A stretch of 64,000 bases of DNA, taken from NCBI RefSeq assembly GCF_000014065.1, contig NC_008044.1:1325501-1389500 (forward strand), written 5' to 3'. Position 1 is the stretch's first letter, and the number at the start of each line of letters is the position of its first letter. The DNA is from Ruegeria sp. TM1040 (lineage in GTDB: Bacteria; Pseudomonadota; Alphaproteobacteria; Rhodobacterales; Rhodobacteraceae). The notes beneath the pieces were generated by a model that saw only the letters and a list, made by a program, of their open reading frames with translations, had not been told where the DNA came from and did no database searches. Positions 50,750-57,433 of the stretch are shown here, one piece after another. The position numbers were made by a program, and so were the translations under genes.

Positions 50750-50999
50750 CTGCTACTCCAAAAACCATGTCGCAAAACGCCCCAAAGGAATGTCGCAATT
50801 CCATCGGGGTCTATGAAAAATAGAATCGATATTGATCAAAAAGAAGTGGTTCGGATCAAAATGGTGAATGGGACGGGCCTATATTGCAAGCCCCAACGCA
50901 GTATCTGGTCTGATCTGCCTCATGGGACATGGCGTCATCATCAGGCAAAGACTGGCCACGCTCAAAAGCGCAGCGTCTAGTTTGAAACTTATGGAGAAG
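50750..50999. other. Gap between the GrlR-like gene and the tRNA fragment
   Basis: About 250 nt with no supported gene. It presumably holds the - strand promoter of the GrlR-like gene and, next to the tRNA 3' end, sequence downstream of the tRNA transcript. A 55-codon frame on + (50813–50980) lacks a good ribosome site. Confidence 0.4.
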
Positions 51000-51061
51000 T
51001 GGTGCGGGTGAAGGGACTTGAACCCCCACGCCTTGCGGCGCCAGAACCTAAATCTAGCGCG
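51000..51061 (-). tRNA. 3' part of tRNA-Leu(UAG); prophage attachment site
   Basis: Read on the - strand this is the anticodon arm (CTAGA-TTTAGGT-TCTGG, anticodon TAG), variable arm, T arm (GGGTTCAAGTCCC) and acceptor end CACCCGCACCA of a tRNA-Leu with encoded CCA. The 5' half (acceptor GCGGGTG, D arm) is absent: sequence above 51061 diverges. This is what remains after a phage has recombined within the anticodon region; the phage copy of the core should complete the gene at the other, unseen end. Confidence 0.88.
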
Positions 51062-51147: not shown

Positions 51148-52155
51148 CTATTCTACCGGCTCAGCCGTGATTGCGGTGCGATATCCCCCACTGTCTAGGA
51201 TGTGGGTTGCCCGGCTGACCAACCATTCTCCGTCAATGTAGGATCGAAACCCACTGGCGCTCAGGCGCGCCTCGGCGACTATGTCGGAGTTTCCGGGCAT
51301 GGTGATTGAAAGGCTGCGTCCTGCTCGCCCCAAGCGCTTTAACTCGGATTCGGCTGTTTTCCGGGCTGTTACCTTGTCCGGGAAGCGTCGCCGCAGCCTT
51401 AAGGCGGGCTCACCTTGCCCGGCCTCTACCTCAACCGGCTGACCAGCTTCGAGATCCTGCGTGGTCGCGATTACGCGCCCAACCCGCTCGCGCAGGCTGT
51501 TCCTGTAGCGCCATTCGGTCACCGATGATTTATCAACTCTCACCACCGGGAGAGGCTGGCCGGATGCGGTTAGGCTTTCCCCTCGCCTGGTCATGATCAG
51601 TCGGCCATTGCCCGGCTTGGCAATCGCATCAAAATCCCGCGCGATCCGTGACAAGAGATTGATATCGCTTTCGTCAATCTGATCGATGTGAGGCAAAGCC
51701 TCTGCGCGCAGGCTTTCGGACACCATAGCGATCAGGCCATGCTCGCTCGCGATTTTTTCGACCATTGCCCCTATTGTGGTGCCTTCGGGCCAGCTCCGCT
51801 TTTTCTGATCGGTAAGCGCCGTTTTGCCGCTTGTGGTTTCTCCGTTCACCGATGCCGTCCCGGTGATCGTCACGGTATCAGGTGGCCCGCCCGTCTCAAT
51901 CGTATCGGCGACAAACAAGCCCATGTAGGACAGACTAAGCGGGAACCCCAACCAGACTTCGATTTCAGCGCCAGCGCGGGGTTCGGAAATCCTCTGAAAC
52001 AGGTTCGTGTCACTTAGGCGGATCTCGACAGTGTCAGACTGCACGCCTGCGCCATCCGTCACACGTAAGCTCACCAGCCGCGGCGCAAGAACGCCACTGA
52101 TATCTTTGCCGTCAACAGTGACTCGAAAGTACGGTCTGAAATCCATCAATCCCAT
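51148..52155 (-). CDS. D: Phage late control/tail protein gpD (baseplate hub)
   Basis: A 335-residue protein of the P2 gpD / VgrG-N group that forms the trimeric baseplate hub under the spike. Seen are FRPYFRVTVDGKDISGVLAPRLV at the start, GAEIEVWLGFPLSLSYMGLFVAD near residue 85, and a closing FRSYIDGEWLVSRATHILD segment. The start overlaps gpX by 10 nt. It is the last gene before the attachment site. Confidence 0.93.
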   Translation of the reverse strand: MGLMDFRPYFRVTVDGKDISGVLAPRLVSLRVTDGAGVQSDTVEIRLSDTNLFQRISEPRAGAEIEVWLGFPLSLSYMGLFVADTIETGGPPDTVTITGTASVNGETTSGKTALTDQKKRSWPEGTTIGAMVEKIASEHGLIAMVSESLRAEALPHIDQIDESDINLLSRIARDFDAIAKPGNGRLIMTRRGESLTASGQPLPVVRVDKSSVTEWRYRNSLRERVGRVIATTQDLEAGQPVEVEAGQGEPALRLRRRFPDKVTARKTAESELKRLGRAGRSLSITMPGNSDIVAEARLSASGFRSYIDGEWLVSRATHILDSGGYRTAITAEPVE

Positions 52156-52364
52156 AGGCGCAGGCTTTCTGCTTCTTTGGGTGTATCGATCACGGGGAGT
52201 TTAACCCGAGTTCCCAGCGGCAGGATCGGCCCCATTGCAGCGATACCCGGATTTGCTTCGAGCACCGTTTCGAACGCGCCCCGGATCTCTGCGCGGTAGT
52301 GGCGCCAGACAATCTCATCGAGGGCCTCACCTTCCTTAGAATGGTAGAAGACTGCGGAGTCCAC
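52146..52364 (-). CDS. X: Phage tail protein gpX (LysM-like)
   Basis: A 72-residue protein matching the small P2 gpX (67 aa) in size and order. It has YHSKEGEALDEIVWRHY at the start, a LysM-like pattern, and GPILPLGTRVKLPV near residue 52. The start is GTG 52364, preceded by GGAGG at 7 nt; the longer frame reaching 52490 overlaps gpU and is not family-like. The gene overlaps gpU by 29 nt and gpD by 10 nt. Confidence 0.9.
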   Translation of the reverse strand: MDSAVFYHSKEGEALDEIVWRHYRAEIRGAFETVLEANPGIAAMGPILPLGTRVKLPVIDTPKEAESLRLWD

Positions 52365-52749
52365 CGTCGTACCTCCGAATACTGATCCCAAATTCTTGCC
52401 ACAGTGGCGCGCCATGGTGCGTAAAGGTCCGTTGGCCCTCTCGCACACTTTTGACCACCCAAACGCCCAGAATGCGCCCTGTACCAGCAATGAGCGGCAA
52501 CGGAATGCCGATGGCGGCCTGACGGCGCATCTTGTCTAGTTGCGCCAGCCCGCCCTTGAAGTGTGGATAAATTACTCCGCGCAACGAAATCGTGTCCTCG
52601 CCATATCCCGTGAATTGCAATGCGTCATCTGCGCCGACACGCTCCTGCGCAGCCCAGCGGTATTCGGTCGACCTCTCAAGGTTTTGATAGGCAGCGTTGT
52701 CGATACTGAACTGGTAGGCGCCGAGTTGCATCATCGTTCCGGCCATCAT
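52336..52749 (-). CDS. U: Phage tail protein gpU (tail terminator)
   Basis: A 137-residue P2 gpU-type protein. Landmarks are QLGAYQFSIDNAAYQNLERSTEYRWA at the start, ISLRGVIYPHFKGGLAQLD near residue 55 and GVWVVKSVREGQ near 95. It overlaps the gpT stop as ATGATG, indicating coupled translation. In P2 gpU lies between T and X as here. Confidence 0.94.
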   Translation of the reverse strand: MMAGTMMQLGAYQFSIDNAAYQNLERSTEYRWAAQERVGADDALQFTGYGEDTISLRGVIYPHFKGGLAQLDKMRRQAAIGIPLPLIAGTGRILGVWVVKSVREGQRTFTHHGAPLWQEFGISIRRYDGGLRSLLPF

Positions 52750-55220
52750 GCGCCCCCGTATTGCCCATAATTGTGAGCCTGGTCATAGAGCGCCCCTGCC
52801 TGCGCTTCGCGCCCGCGGCGCTCGAGCTCGTCGATGAGACTCTGCGGGCTCATACTGCCAGCATGAATTTGTGCATGGATCACAACCGGCGCGGCCTGAG
52901 CAGCATGCGTCTGCGGAGAAGCTACCCGACCCTGCATCTGATCGCCTGTGACCTCGATACGCTGCAACACCGGCGCGACGGCTTGCTGCGCGCCCGCCAT
53001 GGCCCTCTGCAGGCCAGCACCCAAAGCATCCAGAACAGGCCCAGCGCGCTCAGACAGACGCGCCAGACGCTCTGTCGCGTTTGCGTGTGCCACATAGCCG
53101 CCCTTCGAGGTCCAGATCGTCTCAGGCCCTTGTTCTCCAACCTCGCGGAAGCCACGCCCGATGGTGCCGCCTAAATAGGAACCAGAAATCCTTATGGGCT
53201 TTGCGCGACCGCTGCGCGGATTGGCCGGCCCTTCATCGCCACTGCTATCGCCACCGCCGAACAGATTGCTGACACCGTTACTGATGCTGTCGCCGATTCC
53301 CTGGATGCCCGCGACGGCTCCCGCACCCTTGTCCCGGAGCCATGACAGGCCATCGAGGACGGGTTGCAGCTTTTCCATCAGCCAAACGAACTTTTGCGCC
53401 AGCCATTCGATCACAGCGCCGACAGCGGTTTTGACCTCTTCCCACGCGGCGGAGATCCCGCCGGTTGCGCCCAGTGCCTCGATCACAGGTCCGATACTGC
53501 CGTCATACGCAGTTTCGAGCACGACGCCGATTTCGCCAATAGCGGTCCCGATCATCGTGCGGGCGATGTCCCACGCTGCTGTGATGTGGCTTGTAATCCC
53601 CAGCTTGTCGGTGATCGGCTTTATCCCGTTCTCCCATGCAAAACGAAAAACTCCAGTGATCCCGTCGAACACTGTCGAGAAGACCGCCTTTGCTGATCCC
53701 CAAGCGTCGGACAGGCCTGCAGCGGCGGCATCCATGTCACCCCGCCAGACACCAGAGACAAATCGACCAAGCCCGCCGAAATGACCCTTCACGCCATCCC
53801 ATAGTTCGGCGAACCACGGCCCGACCTTCTCCCAGTTTTCATAGATCAGGTAAGCAGATCCCGCGATCCCGGCCACGGCAAGCCCAATGGGGTTCATCAG
53901 CAAAGCCCGCCCGACAGCAAGAACGCCCGTCTTGACCAGGGCAAGCCCACCAGCGAACAACTTCATCGCGCCAGCTCCTGCGGCCCCCCACGGCACAAGC
54001 GCCGCCATAGAGACGCCGAGGCGACCGACCGCCCAGCCGAAATTGAGCACGCTGGCGATGGTGCGACCGGCCAAGACCGTGCCGACGACGATTCCGAAAT
54101 TCTTCCAGCCCCCGACCATTTCCGCCGTTTTGGAGATCACGCCACCGACTGCCTTAGACACATCACCCATGCCCTCGGCGATTTGACCGATCACAGGCAA
54201 AGCTGCCTCAAGCTTGGTTGCGGCGGTATCAGCAAAGGCTGCAACGTCGTCGCGATTGGTCACGGCCCATTCGCTAAACCGCTGCATCGACCGGGTGACC
54301 ACAGGCATCAGCTCTGACCCGATGGTGTTTTTCAGGCCTTTGATCGACAGTTGCGCATCTAGCTGTGCGTCGGCAAAAGCTTCTGCGTCCCGCGCAGCTT
54401 CCTCGCTCAAGACATAGCCGGTGCGCCGGGCGTCTTCGCGCAGTTGTTCCAGCGCATCCGATCCGTTTCCGAGCATGTTTACCATGCCGATCCCCGACCG
54501 GCTGAACAATGCCGCAGCAATCGCCGCGCGTTCGGCTGGCGCTTCGATACCCTGCAGTTTGTCCGCGATTGCACCCATGGCGCGCTCTGGCCCCATGGCT
54601 ATCAGGTCGCTTGCACTCAGGCCGATCTGGTCGAGCGCTTTTTTCGCGGCACCCGTGCCTTGCGCTGCCTCGCCCAGGCGCTTCTGCATTGCTGTCAGTG
54701 AGCTATCGAACGTCTCTGTCGACACCCCAGAGCGCTCGGCCGCATAGCGGTATTCCTGTAACGCCTCGATCCCGATCCCGAGCTTCCCTGCCGTTTTGGC
54801 AACCTGGTCACCGTATGAAGCCGTTGAACTGGTCAGCGCGAAGATCCCGGCGCCAACCGCTGTAATTCCAATTGCCGATTGCCTTGCGAGCCGTCCGATC
54901 CGTTGGGTCATATCGCCAAAGGTTTTGCCGACCCGGGCGCTGTCGCGCATCGCGCGCTCCCAGCGCCTCTGTTTGCGCGCCAGATCCTCGAGCGTGCGCT
55001 CTAATGCTTCATACTCGCGGTCCAGGTGCTCGACCGATTTGCCCTGTTTCTCAAGGTCTTTGCGCGTGCGCGAAAGCTCTTTCTGGCGTTCTTTAACATC
55101 GCGGATGCTTTGCCCGACCTTGTCAAAGCCCGACCGGACAAAACCGATACCCTTGCGGAAGGAATTTTCAACAACACCGCCGATGGTCACAGTGGCGTTA
55201 AGGCGCTGATTTTTTGCCAT
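52746..55220 (-). CDS. T: Phage tail tape-measure protein gpT
   Basis: An 824-residue tail-length ruler. The N-terminal 100 residues form a charged coiled coil (DVKERQKELSRTRKDLEKQGK…LEDLARKQRRWERA). A TP901-type core follows (about 110–330), then hydrophobic segments near 410–460 and a Gly/Ala-rich C-terminal part. At roughly 3 residues per nm-scale ruler unit it predicts a P2-size tail (P2 gpT is 815 aa). Its start lies 22 nt inside the frameshifted E' frame. Confidence 0.94.
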   Translation of the reverse strand: MAKNQRLNATVTIGGVVENSFRKGIGFVRSGFDKVGQSIRDVKERQKELSRTRKDLEKQGKSVEHLDREYEALERTLEDLARKQRRWERAMRDSARVGKTFGDMTQRIGRLARQSAIGITAVGAGIFALTSSTASYGDQVAKTAGKLGIGIEALQEYRYAAERSGVSTETFDSSLTAMQKRLGEAAQGTGAAKKALDQIGLSASDLIAMGPERAMGAIADKLQGIEAPAERAAIAAALFSRSGIGMVNMLGNGSDALEQLREDARRTGYVLSEEAARDAEAFADAQLDAQLSIKGLKNTIGSELMPVVTRSMQRFSEWAVTNRDDVAAFADTAATKLEAALPVIGQIAEGMGDVSKAVGGVISKTAEMVGGWKNFGIVVGTVLAGRTIASVLNFGWAVGRLGVSMAALVPWGAAGAGAMKLFAGGLALVKTGVLAVGRALLMNPIGLAVAGIAGSAYLIYENWEKVGPWFAELWDGVKGHFGGLGRFVSGVWRGDMDAAAAGLSDAWGSAKAVFSTVFDGITGVFRFAWENGIKPITDKLGITSHITAAWDIARTMIGTAIGEIGVVLETAYDGSIGPVIEALGATGGISAAWEEVKTAVGAVIEWLAQKFVWLMEKLQPVLDGLSWLRDKGAGAVAGIQGIGDSISNGVSNLFGGGDSSGDEGPANPRSGRAKPIRISGSYLGGTIGRGFREVGEQGPETIWTSKGGYVAHANATERLARLSERAGPVLDALGAGLQRAMAGAQQAVAPVLQRIEVTGDQMQGRVASPQTHAAQAAPVVIHAQIHAGSMSPQSLIDELERRGREAQAGALYDQAHNYGQYGGA

Positions 55221-55353
55221 TGATTTCCCTCAGGCCTTCAAGCCACCACGTCATGCGACTGACGCTCATTGCGGAGATCTCGGCGCACGACCAGCCGGTC
55301 TCGCGTGCGATCAGCAGCACGCCGAGGCGCGCCGCCTCAGGCGTCAGCCATTG
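55198..55353 (-). CDS. E': Tail assembly chaperone extension gpE' (made by -1 frameshift)
   Basis: An open frame in -1 relative to gpE, without its own start. It begins CAA at 55353 right after the slippery heptamer and runs 51 codons to TAA 55198, reading QWLTPEAARLG…TGWSCAEISAMSVS then MTWWLEGLREING. The Trp/Leu-rich segment resembles P2 E'. Joined to the first 97 residues of gpE it gives a product of about 148 residues, the gpE+E' form needed for tail assembly. It overlaps the gpT start by 23 nt. Confidence 0.88.
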   Translation of the reverse strand, partial: QWLTPEAARLGVLLIARETGWSCAEISAMSVSRMTWWLEGLREINGKKSAP

Positions 55354-55643
55354 AAAAAATCCAGCGCCTCTTGAAGTCGGCGGTAGTCGCGCATCGGAGC
55401 GGTCTGCACCTCTTCGGGCGACAGATCTGCCAGATTTGCAATCAGCGTGATTTCATGAACGGCGTTGTCACCCTTTGCCATTTGGCGCGCGGCCATGTTG
55501 TCGCCTGCCGTCGGTTCGCGCAGGGTGACCTCTTTGCGTTTTTCGCTGCCAACGGTGATGCCCTTTGCAAGCGTCACGGTCACGGACTCCTGATCGCCGT
55601 CGGTGTTGTGCTTGCAATAGGAAGGAAGTGCCGGATTTTGCAT
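55344..55643 (-). CDS. E: Phage tail assembly protein gpE
   Basis: A 99-residue tail assembly chaperone of the P2 gpE group. Seen are VTVTLAKGITVGSEKRKEVTLREPTAGD and an acidic helical end with LQEALDFFNG. Start ATG 55643 follows AAGGAG. The slippery heptamer lies in its last codons, so a fraction of ribosomes makes gpE+E'. Confidence 0.92.
   Translation of the reverse strand: MQNPALPSYCKHNTDGDQESVTVTLAKGITVGSEKRKEVTLREPTAGDNMAARQMAKGDNAVHEITLIANLADLSPEEVQTAPMRDYRRLQEALDFFNG
55353..55359 (-). promoter_or_regulatory. -1 ribosomal frameshift slippery site
   Basis: On the - strand the heptamer T-TTT-TTC sits in the gpE frame as (GA)T TTT TTC, the X-XXY-YYZ arrangement, 6 codons before the gpE region ends in TGA at 55346–55344. 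Slippage by -1 leads straight into the E' frame. Confidence 0.9.
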
Positions 55644-55652
55644 GGTTGCTCC

Positions 55653-56159
55653 TTAGATGCCCAGCGCGGCGCGCTGCTCTGCCAGATGATCGACGCCGTC
55701 GATGATCCGCTTCATATTGATCACGTCGATATCGCAAACGACGCGCGGCCCGACGGTTTCCTTAAACGCTTCAAGCGTCATGCTTACAGTGAGGGTCGCA
55801 GACTGCCCGGGCGACCAGGTGCCACGATCAGGGGTGATGATCTTTCCCCGCATGTTGTGGATTACCGGCGTGACGGTGCCATCCTCGCTTTCCAGAGCGC
55901 CGCGCGCGGTGATCTGGATCCGACGCCCCGGCGCGATACCCCAGAGGGCCAACACGTCTGCGCTGTAGTTGCGCAACACAAACGAGGTGGTCATCTTTTC
56001 CATGCCCATATCGAGATCGATCGGGCCGTTCATACCACCGCCGCGGTATTCCTCGGTTGCGATAGACGGGCTTGGCGGGGTGTAGTCGCCCAGCTCACCA
56101 GCAAAGCCCCGCCCGTCAACGAACAGATTGAAGTTTTTCAGAATGTTGCGAATAGACAT
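55653..56159 (-). CDS. FII: Phage major tail tube protein gpFII
   Basis: A 168-residue tube subunit. It starts MSIRNILKNFNLFVDGRG and has GGGMNGPIDLDMGMEKM near residue 40 and the beta-rich RGKIITPDRGTWSPGQSATLTVSMTLE-like middle; size agrees with P2 FII (172 aa). Its start shares one base with the sheath gene stop. Confidence 0.96.
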   Translation of the reverse strand: MSIRNILKNFNLFVDGRGFAGELGDYTPPSPSIATEEYRGGGMNGPIDLDMGMEKMTTSFVLRNYSADVLALWGIAPGRRIQITARGALESEDGTVTPVIHNMRGKIITPDRGTWSPGQSATLTVSMTLEAFKETVGPRVVCDIDVINMKRIIDGVDHLAEQRAALGI

Positions 56160-57376
56160 TAGCCCAGCGCCTCCGTGATGTACTCATTTGTCAGGTGAGA
56201 GCGGAAGGTCACCCGCTCGGCTGGGTACACGGGTGTAAAGTCAAAGTTGAACCACACCTGCCCGTTGGCAATGCTCTCGGGGGTGTTCAAATCCGGATCA
56301 GCCCAGCACGTACCACCGAGGATCGCACCTTGCGCAACCAGCCCCGCGATAAAGGCGTTCACCCCTTCGACCACGTCCTCGATGTAGGTCTTGGAAATCC
56401 CACGGTCCACGGCCCAAAGATGCGTGCGCTGGATGCTTTCATTCAACACATCTGCGGTGCGCCGCACACAGAGGTATTGCCACTTTGGATCGGCTGTGGG
56501 CGCGCGGTTCCCCCAAAGGCGGAACCCGTCCTGACGGATGATCGTAGCGACGTCATTGCTGTTGAGCAGGTTCGCTCGGCTTGCCTGATCGCCCAGCTTG
56601 AAATCAACCGGGCGCGAGGTCCCGATTATTCCAAAAATACCCTTATTTGAGGGCGATACCCAAAACCCTTCGTCATTGTCAGTGCGGGCAATCACACCAG
56701 CAACCCGGGCAGAGGCCGGTTCATTGACCACCTCACCTGCGCTGTCGAGAACCTTCACCCAAGGGTCAACGACATAGATGCGACCTGAAGTGCCCCAATC
56801 GCCAGCGTAAGTGTGTGCATCTGCGTCGGTCGTGTTCGGCCCGTCTGCGATGATCACCGCGCCGATACGGTTAGCAATGCCTTCCAACTCGGCGACCACC
56901 GGGTTCGCAAGATAGGAGCCGGGATTTCCTGCGTCCTCTGGGCGCTGATGCGTCCAACCTGGGGCGATAAGGATGCGCGGTGCAAACCCCACGACGCTCT
57001 CCGCACCAGACAGCGCATGCACACCCTCAAATTGCCCGTCCGTCGCATTCACGCCGCCGATCACATTGGCGAGCGTTGCTGCTTCATCGACGCCCTCGTC
57101 AACGCGCACAACGATCACAACCGCGCCGATCTGGTCAAAGATCCCGTCGAGCGCAGCAGGAAGCGTTCCACCGCCGGTGCCGTCGTCGGTGGTGTCGAGC
57201 TTTGCCGCCTCAAGGCGGCTGCCTGCGACCAGTACCGGTGTATTCAGCGGAAAGGCAGTTTCGTCAGCCGCAGGCGCAGTCCCAACAATACCGATCACAC
57301 TGGTCGGGATCGCTTGGATCGGGCGCGGACCCGTGTCGATCTCGAGAACCTCGACGCCGTGAAGAAACCCAGCCAT
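56159..57376 (-). CDS. FI: Phage tail sheath protein gpFI
   Basis: A 405-residue contractile sheath subunit. The start MAGFLHGVEVLEIDTGPRPI, the central IGAVIIADGPNTTDADA block, VIARTDNDEGFWVSPSNKGI near 225 and the C-terminal domain ending FRSHLTNEYITEALG are typical of P2 FI (396 aa). Start ATG 57376 follows GAGGGTAAA; the frame runs upstream to 57409 without similarity. A hairpin and an 18-nt repeat lie in the gap before it. Confidence 0.96.
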   Translation of the reverse strand: MAGFLHGVEVLEIDTGPRPIQAIPTSVIGIVGTAPAADETAFPLNTPVLVAGSRLEAAKLDTTDDGTGGGTLPAALDGIFDQIGAVVIVVRVDEGVDEAATLANVIGGVNATDGQFEGVHALSGAESVVGFAPRILIAPGWTHQRPEDAGNPGSYLANPVVAELEGIANRIGAVIIADGPNTTDADAHTYAGDWGTSGRIYVVDPWVKVLDSAGEVVNEPASARVAGVIARTDNDEGFWVSPSNKGIFGIIGTSRPVDFKLGDQASRANLLNSNDVATIIRQDGFRLWGNRAPTADPKWQYLCVRRTADVLNESIQRTHLWAVDRGISKTYIEDVVEGVNAFIAGLVAQGAILGGTCWADPDLNTPESIANGQVWFNFDFTPVYPAERVTFRSHLTNEYITEALG

Positions 57377-57433
57377 TTTACCCTCGCTGCAAATTGCATG
57401 TTGCTGCAATCATCGCGAGCGCGAGCGATAAGC

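Follow-up and report, generated by a model that had tools for sequence, protein, structure and literature searches.

Does gene E, the tail assembly chaperone gene of a prophage in the marine bacterium Ruegeria sp. TM1040, give rise to one protein or to two? The gene lies on the minus strand of a 64,000-nucleotide (nt) stretch of contig NC_008044.1 (positions 1,325,501 to 1,389,500), which was analyzed whole and is called the window here. A list of its open reading frames (ORFs) shows E and, of the E′ frame that overlaps its end, just a fragment of 40 amino acids (aa) with a GTG start (55320..55198). A preliminary description, made from the letters of the window, had claimed that such a list misses E′, as it does, and that a programmed -1 frameshift joins E and E′. 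A programmed -1 ribosomal frameshift of the kind known as E/E+E′ in phage P2 very probably takes place here, as judged from the phase of the slip site, its conservation in position, homology, and selection on E′. The frameshift itself is ordinary; its kind is already known, and the window provides a further case.

The slip site and its conservation

Within 55643..55198 there is a single TTTTTT run, in phase 2, giving T_TTT_TTC. The heptamer has the exact coordinates and X_XXY_YYZ phase first described, among the last codons of E (Table 1), and the E frame continues after it with AAT GGC TGA. The open stretch of the -1 frame (55452 to 55198) is 84 codons long; 51 of them lie past the slip as had been proposed, and its stop codon (55200-55198) falls 20 nt into T, whose start is at 55220. 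When recomputed, the predicted E+E′ fusion has the same length as before, 148 aa. TTTTTTC occurs 11 times on both strands of the window. An AGAGG at 55367-55371 (minus strand), 7 nt 5′ of the heptamer, resembles a weak Shine-Dalgarno sequence and lies within the codons for LQEAL. E is a member of the Pfam tail chaperone family Phage_TAC_7 (“E, or 41 or 14”), with a match above the cut-off (1.1e-23).

The slip, its rate, and the chaperone roles of its products are what we infer. Most ribosomes would read E (99 aa) and halt at the TGA. At U_UUU_UUC, the two tRNA-Phe could shift back by one base and pair anew with UUU UUU; some ribosomes, the minority, would then go on through 51 further codons and complete E+E′. 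By analogy with P2 and with G/GT of phage lambda, both forms may chaperone the tape measure protein T in tail assembly, the common N-terminal part binding T and the E′ part recruiting the tube protein.

Relatives were collected from contig scans. One viral-contig scan had 254 confirmed relatives, of which 80 were taken, so the 85 clade loci discussed below are less than a full census; a genome-contig scan returned no relative with a single protein as the query and 24 loci with an alignment as the query. Among the 157 loci fetched (copies included), 125 have the E′ motif at the E stop, in the -1 frame, which bears out the E′-like similarity sought in related loci, and most of the remaining 32 are of the P2 type, whose E′ is different. 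These 32 (the P2-type ones, L086, and L146) were left out, as were a further 10 with another motif offset, leaving 115 loci. Redundancy filtering of the 115 gave 85 loci that are >3% different and 73 that are >10% different. L146 is the same stretch as L007 with the E frame wrongly assigned and hence stays outside the counts. A set of 53 loci holds those with an E match, including the window's own copy; L002, a near copy of L001, was dropped before heptamers were counted in it.

In the overlap of E with the -1 frame, 47 of the 53 loci have an in-phase heptamer, compared with 7 and 5 for the other two phases. Canonical heptamers occur in the last 24 nt of E in 61 of the 85 nonredundant clade loci (9 and 3 in the other two phases) and are of 10 types. 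The 3′-most one is GGGTTTT in 17 of the 61 loci, TTTTTTG in 16, AAATTTT in 9, TTTTTTC in 7, TTTTTTA in 4, GGGTTTC in 3, and TTTTTTT in 2, with three others found once each. Heptamer and E stop are 6 nt apart in 46 of these loci; in 14 the gap is 3 nt, and in 1 it is 9 nt. More generally, T precedes a TTN codon within the last 18 nt of E in 84 of the 85 loci. By this comparison of loci, the slip site is conserved in place and not in sequence, and the earlier expectation of a heptamer conserved among homologues holds for its position and fails for its letters. The preceding codon varies while the site stays put; therefore, what is kept is the place, together with a final tRNA that can pair again on UUU.

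E′ is, as its pattern of substitution indicates, a coding sequence under purifying selection. Nonsynonymous and synonymous divergences (dN/dS) of E′ are 0.009/0.186 against locus L001 and 0.073/0.527 against L004, and in pairwise comparisons of all 23 loci examined, the E′ frame has 6,395 changes at third positions, 4,050 at first positions, and 2,753 at second positions. Nine residues, including W21, W36, and W37, are invariant in 14 E′ sequences. It is this conservation, not the open frame itself, that exceeds chance.

Relation to phage P2 and rival readings

The E/E+E′ frameshift of phage P2 was reportedly described by Christie et al. in 2002, and the P2 record NC_001895 has a -1 site marked close to where E ends, with FII and T on either side. 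The window resembles P2 in its operon place (FI-FII-E-E′-T), in having a T6 heptamer for the -1 shift toward the 3′ end of E, in an E′ end that overlaps T, and in close product lengths (91 and 142 aa in P2; 99 and 148 aa in the window). It differs in that the last heptamer codon is UUC rather than UUG, the E stop comes 6 nt rather than 18 nt past the heptamer, and its E′ falls outside the Pfam model of P2 E′. The prophage also carries a lambda-family portal with a GpA-family terminase, a pairing that the portal and terminase of P2 do not share. A profile-profile comparison (hhalign) of 14 clade E′ sequences with 14 P2-type ones, P2 among the latter, gave a probability of 97.0% (E value of 1.1e-10 over 40 columns). 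A relationship of E′ to P2 E′ is thus a fair reading as homology, and the likeness claimed at the outset is borne out by profile comparison and not by the Pfam model.

Among the best named phages by E+E′ are Pseudomonas phages Persinger and PPpW-3, Burkholderia phage Mica, Achromobacter phage Mano, and Jilinvirus (ep3 and ECO1230-10). They share with the window an E stop that follows the heptamer by 3 or 6 nt and the E′ motif TGW...W.[ED]GL, and they differ in their heptamers (GGGTTTC, AAATTTT, GGGTTTT, and TTTTTTA), at 31 to 45% identity. The records of Mica and Mano list a “tape measure chaperone frameshift product,” Murka has E and E′ annotated as separate genes, and 12 of the 17 phage records fetched have no E′ feature. 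The G/GT pair of lambda is alike in logic, and its heptamer differs from that of the window. Passages of published work describe one start and two chaperone products via a -1 slip for lambda G/GT (PMC5009743) and slip sites of T6G in P2, T7G in Smp131, and T7C in xanthomonad and Stenotrophomonas maltophilia prophages (PMC3931495). Others give TTTTTTG in P2 and Burkholderia cepacia complex (BCC) phages, with an E of 91 aa and an E+E′ of 142 aa (PMC3091744), slipping measured at 6 and 7% for two HK97-like tail chaperone genes (PMC3711429), and prediction work on such frameshift sites (PMC10885494).

Several observations weigh against a programmed frameshift in the window or against the kinship of its E′ with that of P2. 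The canonical heptamer is missing in 24 of the 85 relatives; 22 of these have T_TTT only (L046, L081, L088, L093, L096, L097, L099, and 15 others), L153 has T_TTC only, and L084 has neither. T_TTT alone would imply slippage of a single tRNA or a lower rate. A -1 frame open over 49 codons is common by chance, arising in a fraction of 0.32 of 5,000 dinucleotide shuffles. E′ by itself matches no Pfam or NCBIfam model, and its sole direct match is phrog_10636, a family of unknown function (2.4e-4). The Pfam model PF06528 (Phage_P2_GpE) had no match in the bacterium's own genome at an E value of ≤0.001, in a search whose 14 control genomes included a matched Escherichia coli; therefore, E′ is not filed under PF06528. 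Separately, a profile search against solved structures gave just two matches, both at chance level (E values of 0.19 and 0.97).

E′ could instead be a separate small gene, unfused and with its own start, for example the GTG at 55320. The 40-aa ORF that begins there and the separate E′ gene annotated in Murka would fit this arrangement, but conservation extends 5′ of that GTG to near the slip site, where R9 is invariant in the 14 sequences and L and P are majority residues, and we consider a separate gene very improbable. Fusion through slippage of RNA polymerase along the T run (transcriptional slippage) is, in our view, equally improbable. The T6 homopolymer, the TTTTTTT of 2 of the 85 relatives, and the T7G and T7C sites given in a passage of PMC3931495 are what such slippage would work on; however, GGGTTTT (17), AAATTTT (9), and GGGTTTC (3) of the 61 loci stand at the same position and suit tandem tRNA slippage, and these sites without a long homopolymer therefore argue against the polymerase. 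That heptamer and open frame both arose by chance, or that the gene has decayed, is barely credible given conservation over 53 and 85 loci and purifying selection on E′, even though an open frame alone is not rare (0.32).

RNA structure past the E stop codon

What may be new at this site is RNA structure close to the slip: folding past it in excess of what codon choice explains and, in 20 roseobacter-type relatives, a stem with covarying third codon positions. To our knowledge, no printed report describes RNA structure after the slip at such sites. A literature search likewise found none in the portions of papers that it returned. Textbook stimulators have a stem 5 to 9 nt past the heptamer. 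A simple downstream stimulator predicted from minimum free energy alone was rejected, as z scores for the window's own sequence (-1.15 and -1.28 against dinucleotide shuffles) were not convincing, and Rfam had no match in 54900..55700 at an E value of ≤1.

When the 73 loci that are >10% different were recoded synonymously, the 45-nt segment whose first base is the final one of the E stop proved more folded than the recoding predicts, with a mean z of -1.14. Control segments under the same shuffling gave -0.06 to -0.66 (11 segments in E) and -0.10 to -0.81 (10 in T); the segments overlapping the E-stop segment reached -0.84 and -0.97, and elsewhere the value was at most -0.81. In a paired test, the means were -0.95 versus -0.36 (Wilcoxon P value = 4.7e-5), with 18 of the 73 loci at a P value of ≤0.05, and the P value was 0.03 for the 19 loci that are >35% different. 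The window's own copy had a z of -2.16 (P value = 0.017), and its own control segments averaged -0.67.

Swapping of stem arms between loci gave a similar picture, with arms fitting their own partners better by 1.5 to 1.7 kcal/mol (z of -5.7 to -6.2) and with a z of -6.1 for arm fit against synonymously recoded sets. The overlapping segments at e+15 and e+27, counted from the first base (e) of the E stop, had z values of -4.7 and -3.1, two later E′ segments had P values of 0.09 and 0.14, and the swap test found nothing in five E segments. One E control segment had extra folding (z of -2.3) and no arm fit (z of 0.4). The signal looks real as a statistical excess.

Some results count against a structure particular to these slip sites. 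In the swap test, two of four control segments in T had P values of <0.05, and T+150 (about 150 nt past the E′ stop, inside T, 64 loci) went beyond its own synonymous null (z of -3.7 and -6.0). P2-type loci (26 named, 25 used) showed no excess under synonymous shuffling (mean z = 0.09, n = 25) and yet gave a P value of 0.0046 in the swap test; because the two tests disagree, the contrast with P2-type sites is blurred. The stem with the best covariation, described next, is broken in the window's own copy, which has C.A and C.C at two of its three third/third pairs.

This stem, in register 59, pairs e+18 to e+25 with e+34 to e+41 in the 20 roseobacter-type loci closest to the window, a block of the FastTree order in which inner supports are partly low. 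It was first noticed in folds of the same 20 loci on which it was tested. There, third-position pairs are standard in 47 of 60 cells (27.1 ± 3.8 expected), a number reached by none of 5,000 permutations; without four Tritonibacter-type loci, they are standard in 39 of 48 cells (23.3 expected). The covariation score is 0.332, compared with 0.142 ± 0.029 for shuffled and 0.057 to 0.187 for slid versions. Two of five measures are at the shuffle level, namely, double-sided changes (3 versus 3.3) and further pair types (10 versus 9.1). In a helix scan of these 20 loci, 9 of the 10 best of 1,138 helices belong to register 59 (z range of the scan, -4.03 to 4.38). A single common register for all 85 loci was rejected, the helix scan yielding none amid wide noise (z of -5.57 to 4.59), and scans of single pairs, 195 in one and 928 in the other, had extreme values on both sides. 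Stems of registers 28 to 32 that start close past the slip are found in other subclades, with no one register significant.

The fold of the window's own copy shifts with the length folded, and stems 7 and 16 nt past the heptamer compete (Table 1). The latter, a register-43 hairpin, appears in the 83-nt fold and not in the 53- or 54-nt fold; it is also predicted in the closest relatives, L001, L065, and L004/L063/L066, the last three having an identical 54 nt.

What this structure does can be read in two ways. It has a little better than an even chance, in our judgment, of being unrelated to frameshifting, as a matter of mRNA stability, of pausing at the E stop, or of a side effect of another constraint on the sequence. 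The register-59 stem starts about 20 to 24 nt past the heptamer, beyond the textbook range, and would meet the ribosome near the E stop and not at the slip; registers vary between subclades, and the excess is also seen about 150 nt into T. PMC3091744 reports no hairpin within 60 bp past three BCC sites and none known for P2. On the other hand, in the synonymous-shuffle scan, the signal peaks in the segment that starts at the E stop (-1.14). In this clade, RNA just past the E stop is folded beyond what codon choice brings, and we have a suspicion, a weak one, that it tunes slip or termination. More specifically, and with distinctly less than an even chance of being right, a downstream hairpin might set the ratio of E to E+E′, its position and register having shifted between lineages and its presence having been kept; the quarter or so of loci with T_TTT only (22 of 85) would slip on a single tRNA-Phe and may lean on this hairpin.

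Tail module, prophage, and significance

Pfam and PHROG matches give the gene order FI-FII-E-(E′)-T-U-X-D, with E/E′ between tail tube and tape measure and with baseplate genes W, J, and I further along, and on these matches the module is a P2-like tail module. To the right of the window are the portal and terminase genes mentioned above, along with capsid and prohead protease in one frame. That frame (L060:620-2701) encodes 693 aa and combines a prohead protease (PF04586) with a major capsid protein (PF05065). A 57-bp perfect direct repeat flanks the prophage (50999-51055 and L061:6426-6482, 39,427 bases apart), and its second copy lies within a tRNA-Leu gene beside a tyrosine integrase. The repeats are probably the attL and attR sites of an element about 39.4 kb long.

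Table 1. Positions in the window of E, its slip site and E′, the RNA stems past the slip, and the neighboring tail genes
Feature	Positions	Strand	Evidence or remark
Gene E, tail assembly chaperone, zero-frame product, 99 aa	55344..55643	-	ORF; PF10109 Phage_TAC_7, 1.1e-23; phrog_166, 4.2e-17
Slippery heptamer T_TTT_TTC, X_XXY_YYZ phase in E	55353..55359	-	Two codons before E stop
E′ part of predicted fusion, 51 codons in -1 frame plus stop	55198..55353	-	Purifying selection; P2-type E′ profile match
E stop codon TGA, 6 nt 3′ of heptamer	55344..55346	-	Sequence reading
Predicted hairpin, 10 bp, 4-nt loop, register 43, 16 nt past heptamer	55313..55336	-	83-nt fold; energy -17.5
Competing predicted stem of own copy, 12 bp, 7 nt past heptamer	55317..55345	-	48-nt fold; energy -17.9
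Place of covarying register-59 stem of roseobacter relatives	55305..55328	-	Broken in own copy
Gene T, tape measure protein, 824 aa	52746..55220	-	phrog_8462 and others, tail length tape measure protein, 1.3e-64
FII tail tube	55653..56159	-	PF04985, 4.2e-55
FI tail sheath (longest ORF; start codon not settled)	56159..57409	-	PF17482/PF04984; phrog_23, 2.9e-116
gpU	52336..52749	-	PF06995, 1.1e-40
gpX (tested stretch; start codon not settled)	52146..52409	-	PF05489, 2.6e-17
gpD baseplate hub, last large phage ORF on that side	51148..52155	-	PF05954, 6.8e-8; phrog_52, 1.9e-102

Overall, E′ can now be annotated where it has been left out. The clade also offers a natural series at one orthologous position (UUUUUUN, GGGUUUN, AAAUUUN, and U_UUU alone) for testing what the bacterial ribosome needs in order to slip. 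If the RNA structure does count, this would be a tail chaperone frameshift with an RNA element to dissect.

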